64,000 nt of DNA from an uncultured bacterium (GTDB lineage Bacteria; Bacillota; Clostridia; Lachnospirales; Lachnospiraceae): NCBI GenBank assembly GCA_947383005.1, contig CANDBT010000002.1, forward strand, positions 1 through 64,000. Reading direction: 5' to 3'. The translations under genes were made by a program, and so were the position numbers. The notes beneath the pieces were generated by a model. It was not told where the DNA came from. It did no database searches and saw nothing but the letters and a program-made list of their open reading frames with translations. Every line of letters begins with the position of its first letter. The first letter of the stretch is position 1. Below are positions 53,264-58,798 of this stretch, piece after piece.

Positions 53264-54109
53264 TCAAACGCAGACAGCGGCCAGTTCCCGCTCATAGATC
53301 TCCCTGTCCACATCCTTAAACACATTAAAAACCACCCTGTCAAATTCCTGCCCATGCTCCTCCATAAAACGCAGCACAGTCCCTGTCGCGATCCGCGCCG
53401 CCTCATCATTGGGGAACCGGAACTCCCCCGTGCTGATACAGCAGAAAGCGACCGTCCGGATTCCATTCTCCACGCAGCACTCCAGTACATTCCGATAACA
53501 GTTTTCCAAATCTTTTTTCAAAGCATCCGTCAGACAGTACCCCACGATCGGCCCCACTGTATGGATCACATGCTTTGCCGGAAGGCCGTACCCTTTCGTC
53601 AACACCGCCCGCCCTGTAGGTTCCTCATACCTGGAACCATACTGCATCTTCCGGCGGCGCATATACTGGCTGCATTCTTCCCGGAGCCGGATGCCGGCGG
53701 CGCTGTGAATGGCATTGTCAATGCACCTGTGGCACGGCACAAAACATCCCAGCATCTGCGAATTGGCCGCATTCACGATCGCATCCACGGAAAGCCTTGT
53801 GATATCCCCCTGCCAGAGGGACAGCTTCTCCGCATAGGGTCCACCGCATCCATACTGCTCCCTTACCGTCGGGATCTCCCCTGCCGTGACAACCCCTTTC
53901 TCCTTTGCCTCCTCAGACAGGAATTCATCCTGCACCCGCAGCACGTCCTCCTTCATCTCCCCCGGCATACGGATATTCATGAGAGACCTAAGAGCCATCC
54001 TTCTGTCCTCATACCCTTCCCCTACTTCCAGGTCCCTGTAACGCCAGGAATCCTCCTTAAATGCACGGAGCAGATAATCCAGCCGCTCCTCCTGCGCCTT
54101 ATTCCGCAT
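53264..54109 (-). CDS. Zinc-dependent macrodomain protein, ADP-ribosyl hydrolase
   Basis: A 281-residue protein with a helical N-terminus (to about residue 80) and a macrodomain. WQGDITRLSVDAIVNAANSQ leads into MLGCFVPCHRCIDNAIHSAAG, the zinc-binding G-C-x-x-P-C/H-x-x-C-I-D pattern of the SirTM-linked macrodomain class, and CCISTGEFRFPNDEAARIA. The class removes mono-ADP-ribose put on by the partner SirTM. The ATG at 54109 follows GGGAGG and overlaps the SirTM 3' end. The usual GcvH-like and LplA2 partners are absent here. Confidence 0.88.
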   Translation of the reverse strand: MRNKAQEERLDYLLRAFKEDSWRYRDLEVGEGYEDRRMALRSLMNIRMPGEMKEDVLRVQDEFLSEEAKEKGVVTAGEIPTVREQYGCGGPYAEKLSLWQGDITRLSVDAIVNAANSQMLGCFVPCHRCIDNAIHSAAGIRLREECSQYMRRRKMQYGSRYEEPTGRAVLTKGYGLPAKHVIHTVGPIVGYCLTDALKKDLENCYRNVLECCVENGIRTVAFCCISTGEFRFPNDEAARIATGTVLRFMEEHGQEFDRVVFNVFKDVDREIYERELAAVCV

Positions 54110-55061
54110 TGCTTTCCACCTCCCGCAATATATCCCGGATACTCTTTCCCATATCCTCATTGATCCCCACCGCATGGCTTCCAAGAGACTCCGGCACCAC
54201 GGCCTCATCCATATTCAACCTGATGAGGGACATATCCCGGTGCTCCCTCGCCAGCTTCTCAAAGGGGAAACGGATAATGGTCGGCGTATTGAATCCCGCC
54301 CCCAGCTCCAGCAGCACCGTCCTCTTCCCCTCACATTCCGTCAGCGCCTCGCCGAAACGTCTCTGAGCCTCATGCCAGGCGTCATCCTCCACAAAATACC
54401 TGTCACAACGCAGGTTCATCTCCATAGGCCCGCCGCAGACCGGGCATTTCGGCACCATATAGGAAGGCACAAGGCAGTCCTTCCTTGCCTGATCCATCTG
54501 CCGGAACATCTCCGTCGCGTCATAAGTCTTCGGATGGCACCCTTTCCTGCACTGGATCAGGCCATAATCCCCCTGGGTGGCAAACACATTTTCCTCCTGA
54601 AACCCGGAAAGGAAAAACTGATGGTCCACATTGGTGGTCAGCACAAAATGAGGTTTCCCCTTCACCAGCGCATACACGTCCTTATATAAGGGCAGCGCGC
54701 CCGGAAGCACCCGGTTCACCATGCCGCTCTTTGACCAGTAGCCCCACTTCGCCTCCTCCGACGGGAACGGATAAAACCCGGCGCTGTACATATCCTGCAT
54801 ATACGGCCCGCCGTATTTCTCCATGAACTCCTTAAAATTTTCCCGGAACCTGCTGCCGCCCATGACAAGCCCTGCCGCCGTGGACAGCCCCGCACCCGCC
54901 CCGACCAGGATAAATTCCGCATCCCGGATAAGCTCCCCGGCCTGCCTGACCTGCTCCTCATAAGGAACCTGCTGGAACACATAATCCCCCGCCGGCGTCC
55001 CGCTCAAAAAATCCTGGAACGTCATTCCATGCTTTCCGCTGGATAAAATATGTTGTGCCAT
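54099..55061 (-). CDS. SirTM, macrodomain-linked sirtuin (protein ADP-ribosyltransferase)
   Basis: A 320-residue Sir2-fold protein. NAD-binding FILVGAGAGLSTAAGLVMGG and FVLTTNVDHQFFLSGFQEEN match, and two CxxC zinc pairs are present (QCRKGC; CPVCGGP). The catalytic His of deacetylase sirtuins is replaced: the site reads ATQGDYGLIQC, as in class M sirtuins, which ADP-ribosylate proteins instead of deacylating. I prefer the start at 55061 (GGAGGG six bases upstream); 55079 is possible. It overlaps the macrodomain gene, so modifier and eraser are made together. Confidence 0.88.
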   Translation of the reverse strand: MAQHILSSGKHGMTFQDFLSGTPAGDYVFQQVPYEEQVRQAGELIRDAEFILVGAGAGLSTAAGLVMGGSRFRENFKEFMEKYGGPYMQDMYSAGFYPFPSEEAKWGYWSKSGMVNRVLPGALPLYKDVYALVKGKPHFVLTTNVDHQFFLSGFQEENVFATQGDYGLIQCRKGCHPKTYDATEMFRQMDQARKDCLVPSYMVPKCPVCGGPMEMNLRCDRYFVEDDAWHEAQRRFGEALTECEGKRTVLLELGAGFNTPTIIRFPFEKLAREHRDMSLIRLNMDEAVVPESLGSHAVGINEDMGKSIRDILREVESNAE

Positions 55062-55086
55062 GTCTTTCCCTCCATTCATGCTATCC

Positions 55087-55400
55087 TTACTGCTCTTGAT
55101 ATTTTACTGCCCCTGCCGGGCACACCTCCATACAGTTCCCGCAATGCAGGCAGTTTTCCTTCCTGATCCGAAGCGGGAGCGCGCCCGTATCAATACATCC
55201 CTGCGGACAGACACCCACACATTTCCCGCACCCGGTACAATCATCCGTGATACAGTACCCTTCCATCCCTCCCCCTGCACGCCGCTCCCCGACAGAAAAA
55301 CTCTCCCGCGTGACCGGCTCATTACCAGAAAGGAATACCCCCAGATACCGCCAAAGGTAGAATACAACCTGAGCGAAAGAGGCAGGTCTTTGATGAATGT
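55087..55400 (-). pseudogene. 5'-truncated copy of the FMN/ferredoxin protein
   Basis: The frame VVFYLWRYLGVFLSGNEP, then TRESFSVGE, leads to two intact ferredoxin motifs CTGCGKCVGVCP and CLHCGNCMEVCP. This parallels the C-terminal 80 residues of the intact neighbour at 55478-56098. The flavin-binding N-terminal half is missing and a TAA closes the frame upstream. A 59-residue ferredoxin could still be translated from the ATG at 55266, which follows GGGGGAGGG, so residual function is possible. Confidence 0.65.
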
Positions 55401-55477
55401 TTTAGACCAACTCTGTATCAGGGGAGAAAAAAACAGAGAGTAGCCGGGACAAAATGGATCGCCGAACACTTCCCCGT

Positions 55478-56098
55478 TTACAATCTGCATTGGATCGCCT
55501 TCTTCGGGCAGTTCTCATAGCAGTTTCCACAATGCAGACAGTGTTCCTGCATGATACGGTAAGGGGCCGGCTCCCTTTTTTCCACCGCTTTCTGCGGGCA
55601 GACTTTCAGGCATTTCCCACAACCGATGCAAGTCTCCGTGATCTCATACCCCTTCCGCTCCTCTTTCCCGTCCCCGACCTCATAGGTTTCACGGAAGATA
55701 GGATTCACGCCAAGATTGAAATACTCAATGGAAAATCCCCGGATGCAGAAGATGATCCCAATCTTTTTCGTATCACCCGGATACACATTTTCCAGATAAG
55801 GCTGCTCCTCAAAGATGGTCCTTATCCATTTCCCCTGCTCACTGTCCGGCACAGGGACTGCCCTGCCTGACAGCCGGATACTCTCCTTATACCTGGTGTA
55901 TCCTAAGATCTGCACCCGCCCGTCATTCAGGAGCTGCTTACAGAACTCCTTCCCCCTGGCAGTAAAAAAATAAAGGGCATCTTCCTCATAGTGGATGGCG
56001 CTGATATTCCGCACCTGCGGCGCGCCATGCTCATCCACCGTGGCAAAATTCAAAACTCCCACATACCCTAATTTTTTGATACAGGTCTGCGCATCCAT
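55478..56098 (-). CDS. Pyridoxamine 5'-phosphate oxidase-like flavin protein with C-terminal ferredoxin domain
   Basis: The 206-residue protein has an FMN-binding split barrel (VLNFATVDEHGAPQVRNISA, LYFFTARGKEFCKQLLND, RLSGRAVPVPDSEQGKWI) and then two 4Fe-4S motifs, CIGCGKCLKVCP and CLHCGNCYENCP. It should pass electrons between Fe-S clusters and flavin, for instance to reduce the radical SAM enzyme encoded 14 bases upstream. GAGGAGG lies eight bases before the ATG. Confidence 0.85.
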   Translation of the reverse strand: MDAQTCIKKLGYVGVLNFATVDEHGAPQVRNISAIHYEEDALYFFTARGKEFCKQLLNDGRVQILGYTRYKESIRLSGRAVPVPDSEQGKWIRTIFEEQPYLENVYPGDTKKIGIIFCIRGFSIEYFNLGVNPIFRETYEVGDGKEERKGYEITETCIGCGKCLKVCPQKAVEKREPAPYRIMQEHCLHCGNCYENCPKKAIQCRL

Positions 56099-56112: not shown

Positions 56113-57213
56113 CTAAAGTAGCGGCACGCGCCGCTTCGCGTCACCTGCCATGTCGTCGGAAGGCATTTTAAGAAACGCTTCGCGTTTGCCTTCCTCCTTC
56201 CAGCACTGCGGGTCCGGCGCGTACATATCCCCATGATACCCGGCCGCCACCGCAGGACATCCCCGGCAGAACCGGAGCAGCTCACACTTCGCACATTTCT
56301 CAAACTTTTCATACACACGGTAGGCGTCCATCTTCGACCCGGTAAACAGTTCAAACAAGTCATCTTCAAGCGCATTGCCTACCCTGCTGTCCACAATCCG
56401 CCTGCACGCATACACATCCCCATCCGACAATATCGTAAAATGGCAGTTGCCGCAGTTGCACCCGTCATAGACAAACTCATCATCCGGATATGCCTTTGGA
56501 TCAAACAGCCCTTTTTCATACTTGAACAGCGTCCACAGATGATCCTTCAGGTTGAACGTCGTGCCGCTGTCCTTATACTGTTCAAATTTCTGCCACGCCT
56601 GCTCCATCATCCAGTGGTATTCCTCTGGGGAACAGCACACCTCCCTGTCCTCCGCCGAAGGGCAGTACCTGGCAAAAGCAAAGATATCCACGTGATTCTC
56701 CACCACCACATCAATCAGTTCCGGCAGCTCCTTATAATTCCATCTGGAAACCGTAAACATGACCGCCACGTCGATCCCGGCCTTCCGGATATACGGGATG
56801 ACCGCCAGCGTCTCGTCAAAAGACCCCGGCCTGCGGATCTTGTCATGCGTTTTCCGGAGTCCGTCAAGGGACAACTGGTATTTCCGACACCCATATCCGG
56901 CCAACCTCTGACAGACCTCTTCCGTTAAATGAAACGGATTTCCCATGAGCGTAAACGGGATCCCCGCAATCTTCAATAATTTTGCCAGCGTCCAGAACTG
57001 CGGGTGCATGATGGGGTCCCCACCGGTGATATACAGATACGGACGCCGCTTTGCCTTTCTGCAAAATTCCTGGCAGTTTTCAATCACCGTGACCATATCC
57101 TCCAGGGCCATCTCCTTAAACTTGGCATGGCTCCCCAGGGCATAGATATAGCAATGCTTACAGCGCTGGTCACAGGCTTCCGTGATATGCCATTGAAACG
57201 CAAAATACTCCAT
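56113..57213 (-). CDS. Radical SAM/SPASM peptide maturase of the ACGX-type RiPP system
   Basis: Predicted product 366 residues. The SAM cluster C14-x3-C18-x2-C21 lies in ITEACDQRCKHCYIYALGS, and YITGGDPIMHPQF is the SAM-binding GGDP. The C-terminal SPASM part contains CNCGNCHFTILSDGDVYACR and CAKCELLRFCRGCPAVA for auxiliary Fe-S clusters. SPASM enzymes modify ribosomal peptides, often by forming thioethers at Cys. The gene directly follows a Cys-repeat peptide gene. The ATG at 57213 is chosen from AGGAGG eight bases upstream and from homology; 57249 is unsupported. Confidence 0.88.
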   Translation of the reverse strand: MEYFAFQWHITEACDQRCKHCYIYALGSHAKFKEMALEDMVTVIENCQEFCRKAKRRPYLYITGGDPIMHPQFWTLAKLLKIAGIPFTLMGNPFHLTEEVCQRLAGYGCRKYQLSLDGLRKTHDKIRRPGSFDETLAVIPYIRKAGIDVAVMFTVSRWNYKELPELIDVVVENHVDIFAFARYCPSAEDREVCCSPEEYHWMMEQAWQKFEQYKDSGTTFNLKDHLWTLFKYEKGLFDPKAYPDDEFVYDGCNCGNCHFTILSDGDVYACRRIVDSRVGNALEDDLFELFTGSKMDAYRVYEKFEKCAKCELLRFCRGCPAVAAGYHGDMYAPDPQCWKEEGKREAFLKMPSDDMAGDAKRRVPLL

Positions 57214-57288
57214 CCAAATTTCCTCCTTCTGACAGGTACCCAGGCACATAAAATGCCTGGATACCTCCTGGCGCTTCCTAAACAGATC

Positions 57289-57528
57289 TTATTTCTTATC
57301 GCCTGTCCCGCAGGCAGATCCGCACGCTGCCGGCTTCTCTTCCTTCTTGTCACCCGCTCCACATGCAGAGCCGCACGCTGCCGGCTTTTCTTCCTTCTTG
57401 TCACCTGCCCCGCAAGCAGAGCCGCACGCTGCCGGCTTCTCTTCCTTCTTGTCACCCACTCCACATGCAGAACCACACGCTGTTGGTGCCGCCATCATTG
57501 CTCTTCCAAAAAGATTTTTAAGTGCCAT
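57289..57528 (-). CDS. CGSACG-repeat peptide, predicted radical SAM RiPP precursor (ACGX type)
   Basis: The 79-residue peptide has a 17-residue leader (MALKNLFGRAMMAAPTA). Three perfect-length 17-residue repeats follow (CGSACG-V/A-G then DKKEEKPAA), and a last CGSACGTGDKK. Eight Cys in four CGSACG units alternate with charged DKKEEKP linkers. The DNA repeats every 51 bases. I recall an 'ACGX system' named for such peptides next to a radical SAM/SPASM protein; the product's structure and role are not established. ATG 57528 lies eight bases after AGGAGG; ATG 57534 is too close to it. Confidence 0.85.
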   Translation of the reverse strand: MALKNLFGRAMMAAPTACGSACGVGDKKEEKPAACGSACGAGDKKEEKPAACGSACGAGDKKEEKPAACGSACGTGDKK

Positions 57529-57559
57529 TTCCATGTCCTCCTAAAAATATATGTATTGA

Positions 57560-57578
57560 TGTAATGTTTATCATTACA
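57560..57578. promoter_or_regulatory. Predicted Rrf2 operator 1, TGTAA-N9-TTACA
   Basis: TGTAATG-tttat-CATTACA, a perfect 7-bp inverted repeat. It lies between the -10 and the precursor gene, where binding would block elongation or initiation. Confidence 0.6.
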
Positions 57579-57584
57579 ACTATT

Positions 57585-57612
57585 ATTATAACGCTTTTTA
57601 TTGTAATGTCAA
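57585..57612 (-). promoter_or_regulatory. Promoter of the repeat-peptide operon
   Basis: Minus-strand TTGACA (57607-57612), 16 bases, TATAAT (57585-57590). It is expected to drive precursor, maturase, flavin protein, SirTM and macrodomain genes, all on the same strand. Confidence 0.75.
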
Positions 57613-57620
57613 TAGTTACA
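57602..57620. promoter_or_regulatory. Predicted Rrf2 operator 2, overlapping the -35
   Basis: TGTAATGTCAATAGTTACA fits TGTAA-N9-TTACA and covers the -35 hexamer of the repeat-peptide operon. Confidence 0.6.
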
Positions 57621-57750
57621 TTAAAATTTTTTTAACTTCCAATCCATCCAGTCCACTTGACCCAAAATAACTACGCCGATTTTCTCTGTGCCATGCAGAA
57701 GCTCCACACAGAAAACCCGCTACTGGAGGCTTTTTATGCGTATTATAGCA

Positions 57751-57783
57751 ATCGAGCCGGAGAAAAATTTTCTCCGGCTCGAT
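57751..57783. terminator. Bidirectional intrinsic terminator
   Basis: A perfect 16-bp palindrome with arms ATCGAGCCGGAGAAAA and TTTTCTCCGGCTCGAT around one base. It separates the Rrf2 gene's 3' end from the repeat-peptide promoter. It gives a T-run on both strands. Confidence 0.7.
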
Positions 57784-57926
57784 GAACGCGGCATTCGCCA
57801 GATGTGGGTGCAAGCACTCCCGTCTGGCTCATTGCTCACGCAAAAAGGGAAGTATCCCGTAAAAAACGCAGAACACTTCCCTTTATACTTCCCACAGAAA
57901 ACCGCTCATTTCAATTACTTATGTCC

Positions 57927-58355
57927 TTACATACTCCGCTTTATCTTATTTACCACATCCGCAATCGTAAATTTCTTCATCTCATCCTCCATTGCCCTCT
58001 GGATACATACCAGTTTGTCATCCAAAGCCGTATGGATGTTTTTGCCCACCGGACAGCATGGGTTCGGGTTCTCATGGAAATGGAACAGCGTCCCTTCCTC
58101 CAACAGATCTACCGCCTCATATACATCATAAAATGTAATCTTATCCACAGGTCTGGTGACCGTCGTTCCGCCAGTCCCTCTTGCCACCTCGATCAGCCCC
58201 GCGTTCCTCAGCTGGGATAAAATTTTCCTGATGATGACCGGATTCACATTGATACTGGATGCCAGAAAATCACTGGTAATTTTATATTCCTCCCCGAATG
58301 TCTCCACACAGGCAAAAATATGAATCGCAATCGTAAACCTGCTGGATATCTGCAC
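57927..58355 (-). CDS. Rrf2 family transcriptional regulator
   Basis: The 142-residue protein has an Rrf2 winged helix: SSRFTIAIHIFACVETFGEE, DFLASSINVNPVIIRKILSQ, LRNAGLIEVARGTGGTTV. A C-terminal half follows with Cys residues (NPNPCCPVG and LVCIQ) in a spacing unlike the C-x8-C-x5-C cluster motif of NsrR/IscR; cluster binding is uncertain. The start is a GTG at 58355, seven bases after GGGAGG. It precedes the repeat-peptide operon on the same strand with a terminator between. TGTAA-N9-TTACA boxes occur at both promoters. Confidence 0.85.
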   Translation of the reverse strand: MQISSRFTIAIHIFACVETFGEEYKITSDFLASSINVNPVIIRKILSQLRNAGLIEVARGTGGTTVTRPVDKITFYDVYEAVDLLEEGTLFHFHENPNPCCPVGKNIHTALDDKLVCIQRAMEDEMKKFTIADVVNKIKRSM

Positions 58356-58376
58356 AAAACCACCTCCCGTCTATAT

Positions 58377-58405
58377 AGTCTACACCCGATATGATGTAAC
58401 GTCAA
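58377..58405 (-). promoter_or_regulatory. Promoter of the Rrf2 regulator gene
   Basis: Minus-strand TTGACG (58400-58405), 17 bases, TAGACT (58377-58382). The -35 lies inside the predicted operator at 58395-58413, which indicates autoregulation. Confidence 0.55.
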
Positions 58406-58413
58406 CTATTACA
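58395..58413. promoter_or_regulatory. Predicted Rrf2 operator 3 at its own promoter
   Basis: TGTAACGTCAACTATTACA matches TGTAA-N9-TTACA, the same spacing as the two boxes at the repeat-peptide promoter. Confidence 0.6.
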
Positions 58414-58702
58414 TTGTTGTCGGCCTTGCCAATCTATGTAAATCATAATTTACGGATAACCTCCTAAAACCAAAAGCCAAGCAAAGGGTTCCAAATGAAC
58501 ACGAGGGGCAATTTTCTTTGAAACAGGGTGCAAATACCCATTGAGGAAGGGTGCAGATATGAACCCCTCACTCCCTGCCAATCACTGTTTCCCATGCCAC
58601 CGACAAGAGCCTTCAGTAGTTTTTCCAATATTCTGCTCAAACCCTTGTATCAATTAAGCGATTTTCAAAAACATAGGGATCCGGCACCGGCAGAAACGTC
58701 CG

Positions 58703-58798
58703 CAGAAAATCGCTCATTTCAATTACTTATGTCCTCACATACTCCGCTTTATCTTATTTACCACATCCGCAATCGTAAATTTTTCATCTCATCTTCCT
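58703..58798 (-). pseudogene. Duplicated 3' end of the Rrf2 gene
   Basis: About 95 bases are nearly identical to 57895-57990 (the last codons of the Rrf2 gene plus 3' flank), with one codon-internal deletion. The rest of a second Rrf2 gene is absent. VanZ's last codons run into this copy. The remaining 58414-58702 shows no gene I can support. Confidence 0.75.

Follow-up and report, generated by a model that had tools for sequence, protein, structure and literature searches.

An ACGX-Family Cys-Repeat Peptide Encoded in One Operon with a SirTM-Type Sirtuin and a Zinc-Type Macrodomain

The ACGX system, which consists of a Cys-repeat peptide (AcgA, TIGR04341) and a radical S-adenosylmethionine (SAM) enzyme with a SPASM domain (AcgM, TIGR04340), is already catalogued and is uncharacterized; the two family names state no function. 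We have analyzed a stretch of 64,000 nucleotides from an uncultured member of the Lachnospiraceae (positions 1 to 64,000 of contig CANDBT010000002.1, assembly GCA_947383005.1; the whole stretch is referred to hereafter as the window) that carries acgA and acgM in an operon. An earlier reading of the letters alone (the sequence-only reading) had matched the pair to the ACGX system and had presented AcgA as the precursor of a ribosomally synthesized and post-translationally modified peptide (RiPP). The family-model search that it proposed bears out the name, both proteins scoring over the curated NCBIfam cut-offs. The interpretation holds in part: the ACGX assignment is right, whereas the sirtuin, the macrodomain, the regulators, and the linked reductases described below point to an intracellular stress system. 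Indeed, we lean, without strong confidence, to the view that the operon of the window is an inducible intracellular system for coping with redox or electrophile stress.

The closest described counterpart of the remainder of the operon is the extended SirTM/Zn-Macro operon. SirTMs are macrodomain-linked sirtuins that have QG in place of HG and that ADP-ribosylate GcvH-L once it has been lipoylated (Rack et al. 2015; PMC4518038), and a 2024 paper gives GcvH-L as the only known SirTM target (PMC11490716). As described in these two reports, the extended operon shares with the window a QG-type SirTM, an adjoining Zn-Macro, and flavin-type oxidoreductase neighbors, as well as a proposed role in redox stress and a small protein that bears sulfur and is encoded alongside the enzyme that modifies it (PMC4518038, PMC11490716). 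The two differ in that the window has AcgA and a radical SAM enzyme in place of lipoylated GcvH-L and LplA2. In the literature that we searched, from which most subscription papers and preprints were out of reach, no description was found of a link between ACGX and SirTM/Zn-Macro or reductases.

The operon of the window

Reading down the minus strand from position 58355 to position 53264, the genes are those for an Rrf2-family regulator, the ACGX peptide, the maturase, a PNPOx-ferredoxin protein, a 59-residue ferredoxin, a SirTM-type sirtuin, and a zinc-type macrodomain. Those that follow the regulator gene are:

57289..57534, minus strand: acgA, ACGX-repeat peptide gene with four 17-residue units (TIGR04341, 71.1 bits; cut-off 28)
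57430..57480, minus strand: acgA repeat unit 1, ACGSACGVGDKKEEKPA
57379..57429, minus strand: acgA repeat unit 2, ACGSACGAGDKKEEKPA
57328..57378, minus strand: acgA repeat unit 3, ACGSACGAGDKKEEKPA
57289..57327, minus strand: acgA repeat unit 4, short, ACGSACGTGDKK and stop
56113..57249, minus strand: acgM, radical SAM/SPASM maturase (TIGR04340, 603.4 bits; cut-off 400)
55478..56098, minus strand: flavin mononucleotide (FMN)-type split-barrel (PNPOx-like) protein with a C-terminal two-cluster ferredoxin domain (PF01243, PF00037)
55087..55266, minus strand: two-cluster 4Fe-4S ferredoxin, 59 residues (PF00037, two stretches)
54099..55079, minus strand: SirTM-type sirtuin, HG motif replaced by QG in ATQGDYG (best PDB matches 5a3a, then 8rsn)
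53264..54208, minus strand: zinc-type macrodomain of the protein-ADP-ribose hydrolase family (PRK04143, NF003163, 291.4 bits; cut-off 272)

A similar row, as annotated, is found on plasmid NZ_CP135163.1 of Roseburia sp. 831b: acgA, acgM, a nitroreductase, a 4Fe-4S protein, a protein-ADP-ribose hydrolase, and Sir2. The window differs in having an Rrf2 regulator and its sites instead of an intact HxlR regulator, and its operon contains no nitroreductase match.

The Cys-repeat precursor with four units that the sequence-only reading reported is real. The acgA open reading frame (ORF; 57534 to 57289) specifies 81 residues, with four ACGSACG units at a period of 17 residues; the spacers are (V/A)GDKKEEKPAA, close to the DKKEEKPAA given earlier. 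A ribosome-binding site and the MALKNLFG start of homologues suggest that translation begins at the second ATG, at 57528, yielding a protein of 79 residues. Each unit of the window peptide ends in CX3D (CGVGD, CGAGD, CGAGD, and CGTGD), and a CX3(D/E) motif is therefore present in four out of four. The three full-length copies of the repeat differ pairwise at two to six codons synonymously and at zero or one codon non-synonymously, as expected for a peptide that is translated and under selection.

Also borne out was the placement of a SPASM radical SAM enzyme directly after the peptide, as the next gene on the same strand, and of an FMN/ferredoxin protein (PNPOx_N and two Fer4 stretches) beyond it. 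The region to which the sequence-only reading assigned the system (57289 to 58413) takes in the peptide, the Rrf2 regulator, and the operator-like sites; the maturase and all later genes of the operon lie outside it. Translation of acgM likely starts at 57213 (MEYFAFQWHIT...). The CxxxCxxC motif and the SPASM cysteines of the enzyme are invariant in an alignment of 26 rows, and the solved structures closest to it in sequence are SkfB (6efn), 5v1q, and 5wgg, the last two being the peptide maturases SuiB and CteB. The source genome has a single maturase over the TIGR04340 cut-off.

Peptide and maturase go together closely in relatives. In a family sample of 299 genomes, a maturase over the cut-off was found in 36 (short fragments below it, as in G128, G258, and G076, being scored as lacking the enzyme) and a peptide match in 31 (30 over the cut-off). 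All 31 fall within the 36, and among the five maturase genomes with no peptide match are two with an in-frame stop in the maturase. The pairing is close to strict at the level of genomes. Homologues in which the maturase regularly pairs with unrelated peptides, which had been proposed as evidence against the assignment, are for the most part not what we observed, the exceptions being loci L106 and L102. The L106 maturase is divergent and just over the cut-off (406.9 bits), with no ACGX peptide at its locus; for that of L102 no target was found.

A phylum sample contained a maturase over the cut-off in nine of 398 genomes, the source genome included, and a maturase-alignment scan of named genomes yielded 557 confirmed relatives. 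The labels of the best 80 of these (hereafter, the named loci; mostly metagenome-assembled genomes, in which binning errors are possible) include Bacillota, Bacteroidota, Treponema, Planctomycetota, an Acholeplasmatales assembly, and methanogens. Support for the archaeal cases comes from a Methanosphaera sp. ISO3-F5 plasmid whose record was deposited as complete; on it, an ACG-repeat peptide is encoded next to a radical SAM/SPASM gene, split into two pieces in the annotation, and a zinc-binding dehydrogenase. Four plasmid records contain a maturase homologue, two of them being versions of one Methanosphaera plasmid. A phage origin was rejected, as the phage collection contained no maturase homologue at 1e-40.

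Partners of the ACGX genes and their regulation

The sirtuin has the hallmark of a SirTM: its ATQGDYG aligns to HIQGEYG of 5a3a, with Gln in place of the catalytic His. Among 44 sirtuin ORFs in ACGX loci, 32 have TQG and seven another QGD, one has HG, and four have neither. The macrodomain ORF overlaps that of the sirtuin, and its true start is probably internal. Its best PDB matches are 8rsi and 5kiv, and the zinc motif, CFVPCHRCIDNAIH, is kept; 22 of 31 macrodomain ORFs in ACGX loci match the pattern used for this motif.

We mapped neighbors by tblastn and counted hits that reached 60 bits in two bands, a near one extending up to 4 kb from the maturase and a far one at 4–8 kb. This was done for the 80 named loci and for a set of 47 consisting of the window and 46 other regions, mostly from one family, some of which are cut by contig ends or have broken or partial maturases; seven sister-family loci (L108–L114) were left out of the latter. 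The near and far bands amounted to 348,324 and 291,805 bp for the 47 loci and to 515,719 and 382,364 bp for the 80. A SirTM was present in the near band at 27 of the 47 loci, the window included, and at 15 of the 80, and in the far band at none in either set. At the level of genomes, 143 of the 299 in the family sample had a match to the window sirtuin (E up to 1e-20, a threshold that admits some 30%-identical paralogues), with matches in 31 of the 36 that have the maturase versus 112 of the 263 that do not (Fisher p = 5.8e-7, genomes being treated as independent, which they are not). On a SirTM tree of 77 rows, the label "ACGX-linked" requires 18 changes, and branches with good support force no fewer than 13 of these. 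Nine of the 40 unlinked rows come from genomes with ACGX at another locus, the branches of two rows are very long, and a change of label may be a loss; what the tree reveals is a linkage that has changed repeatedly, not a number of gains. The order of the SirTM and ACGX genes varies as well, with divergent arrangements in L076 and L084.

GcvH was considered as the sirtuin target in these genomes and rejected. We searched 25 genomes that have both ACGX and SirTM (21 of the 31 such genomes in the family sample and four others) and found a GCV_H match in 13, over the cut-off in seven, and full length only in G610 (135 bits). The other matches are partial, at 20–25 bits, and the one that was inspected, the sole match in the source genome (24.1 bits; cut-off 22.2; model positions 20–81 of 122), is a biotin-carrier-like ORF on another contig; GcvH-L is not in the window operon. 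This argument is weakened by a control set of 31 SirTM genomes without ACGX, of which nine have a full-length GcvH and 22 lack a full-length one.

Near the maturase in the 47-locus set we also counted PNPOx-ferredoxin proteins at 26 loci, nitroreductases at 25, macrodomains at 18, quinone-reductase-like proteins at nine, and HxlR regulators at 36; the far band held three HxlR hits and nothing else. The corresponding near counts for the 80 named loci were 26, 24, 13, 46, and 59, with one HxlR hit and one nitroreductase hit in the far band. At 43/47 and 76/80 loci the maturase has at least one of the three types of reductase nearby, and at 34/47 and 70/80 a nitroreductase or quinone-reductase-like protein, archaea included (archaeal loci, 12/13; Bacteroidota, 45/47; Bacillota, 10/17; others, 3/3). 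Representatives of these neighbors match PF01638 (HxlR), PF00881 (nitroreductase), and PF08240/PF00107 (the dehydrogenase). In one genome (L019/L077), moreover, a flavin reductase has ACGX repeats as its C-terminus (L019:2920-3669, minus strand; Pfam Flavin_Reduct, residues 13–144). The fusion ORF lies about 0.3 kb upstream of the maturase, and no second peptide match was found in that genome. In L245 a flavin reductase with 40% identity is encoded on its own, directly upstream of the peptide.

The regulatory features of the window are:

57927..58355, minus strand: Rrf2-family regulator (PF02082, 107.6 bits)
58395..58413, no strand assigned: operator-like site upstream of the Rrf2 gene (exact match)
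57602..57620, no strand assigned: operator-like site TGTAAYN7RTTACA over the -35 box of the peptide promoter (exact match)
57585..57612, minus strand: peptide-operon promoter-like site, TTGACA-16-TATAAT (12/12 consensus bases)
57560..57578, no strand assigned: second operator-like site, downstream of the -10 box (exact match)

Both HxlR/DUF24 proteins and Rrf2 proteins of the HypR type are sensors of thiol or electrophile stress. The best NCBIfam model for the Rrf2 protein is HypR (54.5 bits, below the cut-off of 180), and the HxlR protein of L064, a representative of the usual ACGX neighbor, comes closest to the redox regulators RrpB and RrpA, again below their cut-offs. The window has three exact matches to the operator motif, the chance expectation being 0.66 at up to one mismatch, and the 5-Mb source genome has five sites versus one for the reversed pattern. 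Exact sites also occur in nine of nine Rrf2-SirTM loci that lack ACGX (L148–L155 and L182), near the SirTM operons or their Rrf2 genes, and the 19-mer at 57602..57620 is identical in L148, L151, L152, and L155. A further exact site is in L233, which has ACGX and Rrf2; none was found in L076, L239, or L254, which have ACGX and an Rrf2 homologue, or in three loci without Rrf2. Because operator-like sites are common to the Rrf2-SirTM loci, the ACGX operon of the window appears, on the strength of these motifs, to have come under a SirTM-type Rrf2 regulon.

Proposed function and rival explanations

How might such a stress system work? AcgA would be made in the cytoplasm, and its Cys units would be modified by AcgM. 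The protein would then stay intracellular, a multi-site sulfur carrier or scavenger in electron exchange with a reductase partner. That partner would be a nitroreductase or a quinone-reductase-like dehydrogenase in most relatives; in the window it is probably the PNPOx-ferredoxin protein. Under stress, a regulator of the redox type (Rrf2 in the window, HxlR in most relatives) would open the promoter. Both the intracellular action and the nature of the inducing stress are what we infer from the observed anatomy, family membership, linkage, and shared operator-like sites, together with the lack of any recognized constant gene for export or cleavage. The most likely role of SirTM and Zn-Macro, where they are present, would be to control how active the system is through reversible ADP-ribosylation, as for lipoylated GcvH-L. 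ACGX, so far two family names, would in this way come to stand for a likely intracellular stress protein rather than for a presumed peptide product.

The linkage of ACGX to SirTM also provides a concrete candidate target, AcgA, for the ADP-ribosylating and hydrolyzing enzyme pair. A tentative proposal, more doubtful than the stress role as such, is that AcgA represents a second class of SirTM target, a Cys-repeat carrier matured by a radical SAM enzyme that replaces lipoylated GcvH-L. SirTM would ADP-ribosylate the matured repeats and Zn-Macro would reverse the modification, a switch that would gate electron exchange with the partner reductase when anaerobes meet redox or electrophile stress.

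Several observations weigh against these proposals. Most of the neighbor queries were drawn from ACGX loci, and the counts thus document the locality of families first seen there and are not an unbiased survey. The best model for the quinone-reductase-like protein is PIG3 quinone oxidoreductase, at 144.9 bits against a cut-off of 296.8. The flavin reductase fusion is a single case, five congeners that were searched having no ACGX peptide match. Exporter-like ORFs (ABC or MATE, by eye) do lie within 3 kb in five of 127 loci, counting both strands, which leaves export conceivable; one ABC-like cluster is represented in 15 loci (within 3 kb in four) and one MATE-like cluster in five (within 3 kb in one). 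Finally, the fetched region contains no SirTM at 44 of 47 Bacteroidota loci, at 13 of 13 archaeal loci, or at L233, whose maturase is the most similar (92%) among the best 80 of 557 named relatives, and SirTM is for that reason an accessory. Conversely, SirTM-Macro loci with HxlR or Rrf2 exist without ACGX.

This last observation favors the strongest of the rival explanations, namely, that ACGX and SirTM/Zn-Macro share only an inducing stress or regulon and that the sirtuin acts on another protein. Such an arrangement, which we consider quite plausible while stopping short of calling it probable, fits the stress system in every respect except its sirtuin step and is the main rival to the idea that AcgA is a SirTM target. 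The shared operator-like sites are consistent with it, as are 22 of the 31 searched SirTM genomes without ACGX, which lack a full-length GcvH as well. What it does not readily explain is that the SirTM tree has many changes in the linkage, which also takes several gene orders, including the divergent ones.

If AcgA were instead the precursor of a redox cofactor, in the manner of mycofactocin or pyrroloquinoline quinone, its matured units would be freed to serve as small electron carriers for the linked reductase. The frequency of a nearby nitroreductase or quinone-reductase-like gene would suit this scheme, as would the many units per precursor (the median is six Cys per core). Yet no linked peptidase was recognized by eye among the 30 largest of 141 clusters of the remaining ORFs within about 5 kb, and the fusion of ACGX units to a flavin reductase favors a group that stays bound to protein. 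We regard a freed cofactor as unlikely.

Slightly less likely again is a conventional secreted RiPP, an antimicrobial or signal whose Cys units AcgM would cross-link before export and cleavage, with the redox genes as bystanders. A leader, a repeated core, and a SPASM maturase whose nearest structures are SkfB, 5v1q, and 5wgg are all as such a pathway would have them. However, the same 30 clusters contain no exporter or peptidase at a constant place, exporter-like ORFs are close by at only the five loci mentioned above, and GG precedes the first CG in just 10 of 114 selected ORFs; the flavin reductase fusion and the prevalence of nearby reductases likewise argue against it.

Least likely of all is a metal-binding or sequestering protein with Cys pairs as ligands and a modification that tunes affinity, for although the repeats are Cys-rich with CGSACG pairs (260 of 657 core Cys being the first of a pair) and a P-type-ATPase-like ORF (by eye) occurs in four of 54 loci, at a median of 5.7 kb upstream, some peptides have single-Cys units only (L247, L267) and no metal gene other than those four was recognized.

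The Cys units, relatives of the maturase, and possible traces of recombination

The linkage raises the question of what the radical SAM enzyme builds on the CG-x-x-Asp/Glu units. In 113 peptides (14 of the 127 loci having no usable peptide and L106 being dropped), Asp or Glu is found at +3 or +4 of 369 of the 396 unit-final CG cysteines. Of all 657 core cysteines, 314 have the acid at +4, 54 at +3, and 12 at +5 or +6; 260 are the first of a CGxxC pair, and 17 are of other kinds. PapB, a ranthipeptide maturase, joins Cys to Asp or Glu in six CX3(D/E) motifs (PMC9413430), and an acid at +4 in ACGX peptides creates the same motif; the window maturase, in contrast, scores 53.2 bits with the PapB model (NF047865; cut-off 340). 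SbtM, a thio(seleno)oxazole maturase that likewise acts on Cys, is reported to form a thiooxazole with the loss of four hydrogens (PMC11002830). Its model (TIGR04082) is the second best in NCBIfam for the window maturase, at 187.8 bits, and the best or second best for six further AcgM members or sisters that were scanned, whereas the score of the window enzyme is well below the cut-off of 350. Our leading guess, held at slightly under even confidence, is a thioether from Cys to Asp or Glu in each CX2-3(D/E) unit; an SbtM-like thiooxazole would be a possible but less likely alternative. A strict Cys-acid rule is contradicted by L281, L288, L293, and L299, in which the peptide ends in CGAK with no acid.

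That the conserved acid serves ADP-ribosylation was also considered and is not favored. The acid is about as frequent at loci without SirTM or Macro in the fetched region (244/264) as at those with them (125/132). It is probably not there for ADP-ribosylation, therefore, and fits the maturation chemistry better. The peptides of methanogens (L267, L284, L304, L311, and L321) are built on another repeat, ACGSDINTACGSDVTAS being one example, that has its acid at +3, and their leaders contain SKIAQN or SKIANN rather than MALKNLFG.

Some relatives of the maturase lie next to large proteins with Cys-rich tails. The L106 enzyme follows an 869-residue TPM-domain protein with a CSSC-rich C-terminal tail (L106:1515-4124, minus strand), and two sister enzymes below the TIGR04340 cut-off follow large proteins with Gly-rich CSSC tails, one a confirmed DUF2207 protein (L113:9749-11596, minus strand) and one a DUF2207 protein by resemblance (L114:6938-8668, plus strand). 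These three proteins, with their Gly/Ser-rich tails, are possible protein-tethered targets. Together with the ACGX–flavin reductase fusion, the CSSC-tailed neighbors suggest that the wider AcgM-like family acts on proteins retained in or on the cell, modifying their Cys tails.

Two other sets of neighbors deserve mention. Among 40 SirTM loci (L148–L187), an NAD(P)-binding NmrA-like ORF is near in 10 and a small PNPOx-like ORF in 10 (names assigned by eye). The two operator sites of the source genome that lie outside the window form a tandem pair of exact matches (L318:6121-7615; G000 contig C75) before a 93-residue PNPOx-like ORF (PNPOx_N, 28.0 bits; cut-off 28.1), beside a flavin reductase and an HxlR-like ORF.

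A last feature lies antisense within the operon:

55318..55443, plus strand: remnant of the 3' end of an HxlR regulator gene (read by eye; 38% HxlR match)

The final 41 residues of this remnant differ at three places, by eye, from the intact HxlR-like ORF L318:7283-7615. A second partial copy of the 3'-end region of the Rrf2 gene (about 57896-57985) was seen by eye at 58700-58795, beside a VanZ-like gene. The partial Rrf2 copy and the HxlR remnant suggest past recombination at the locus.

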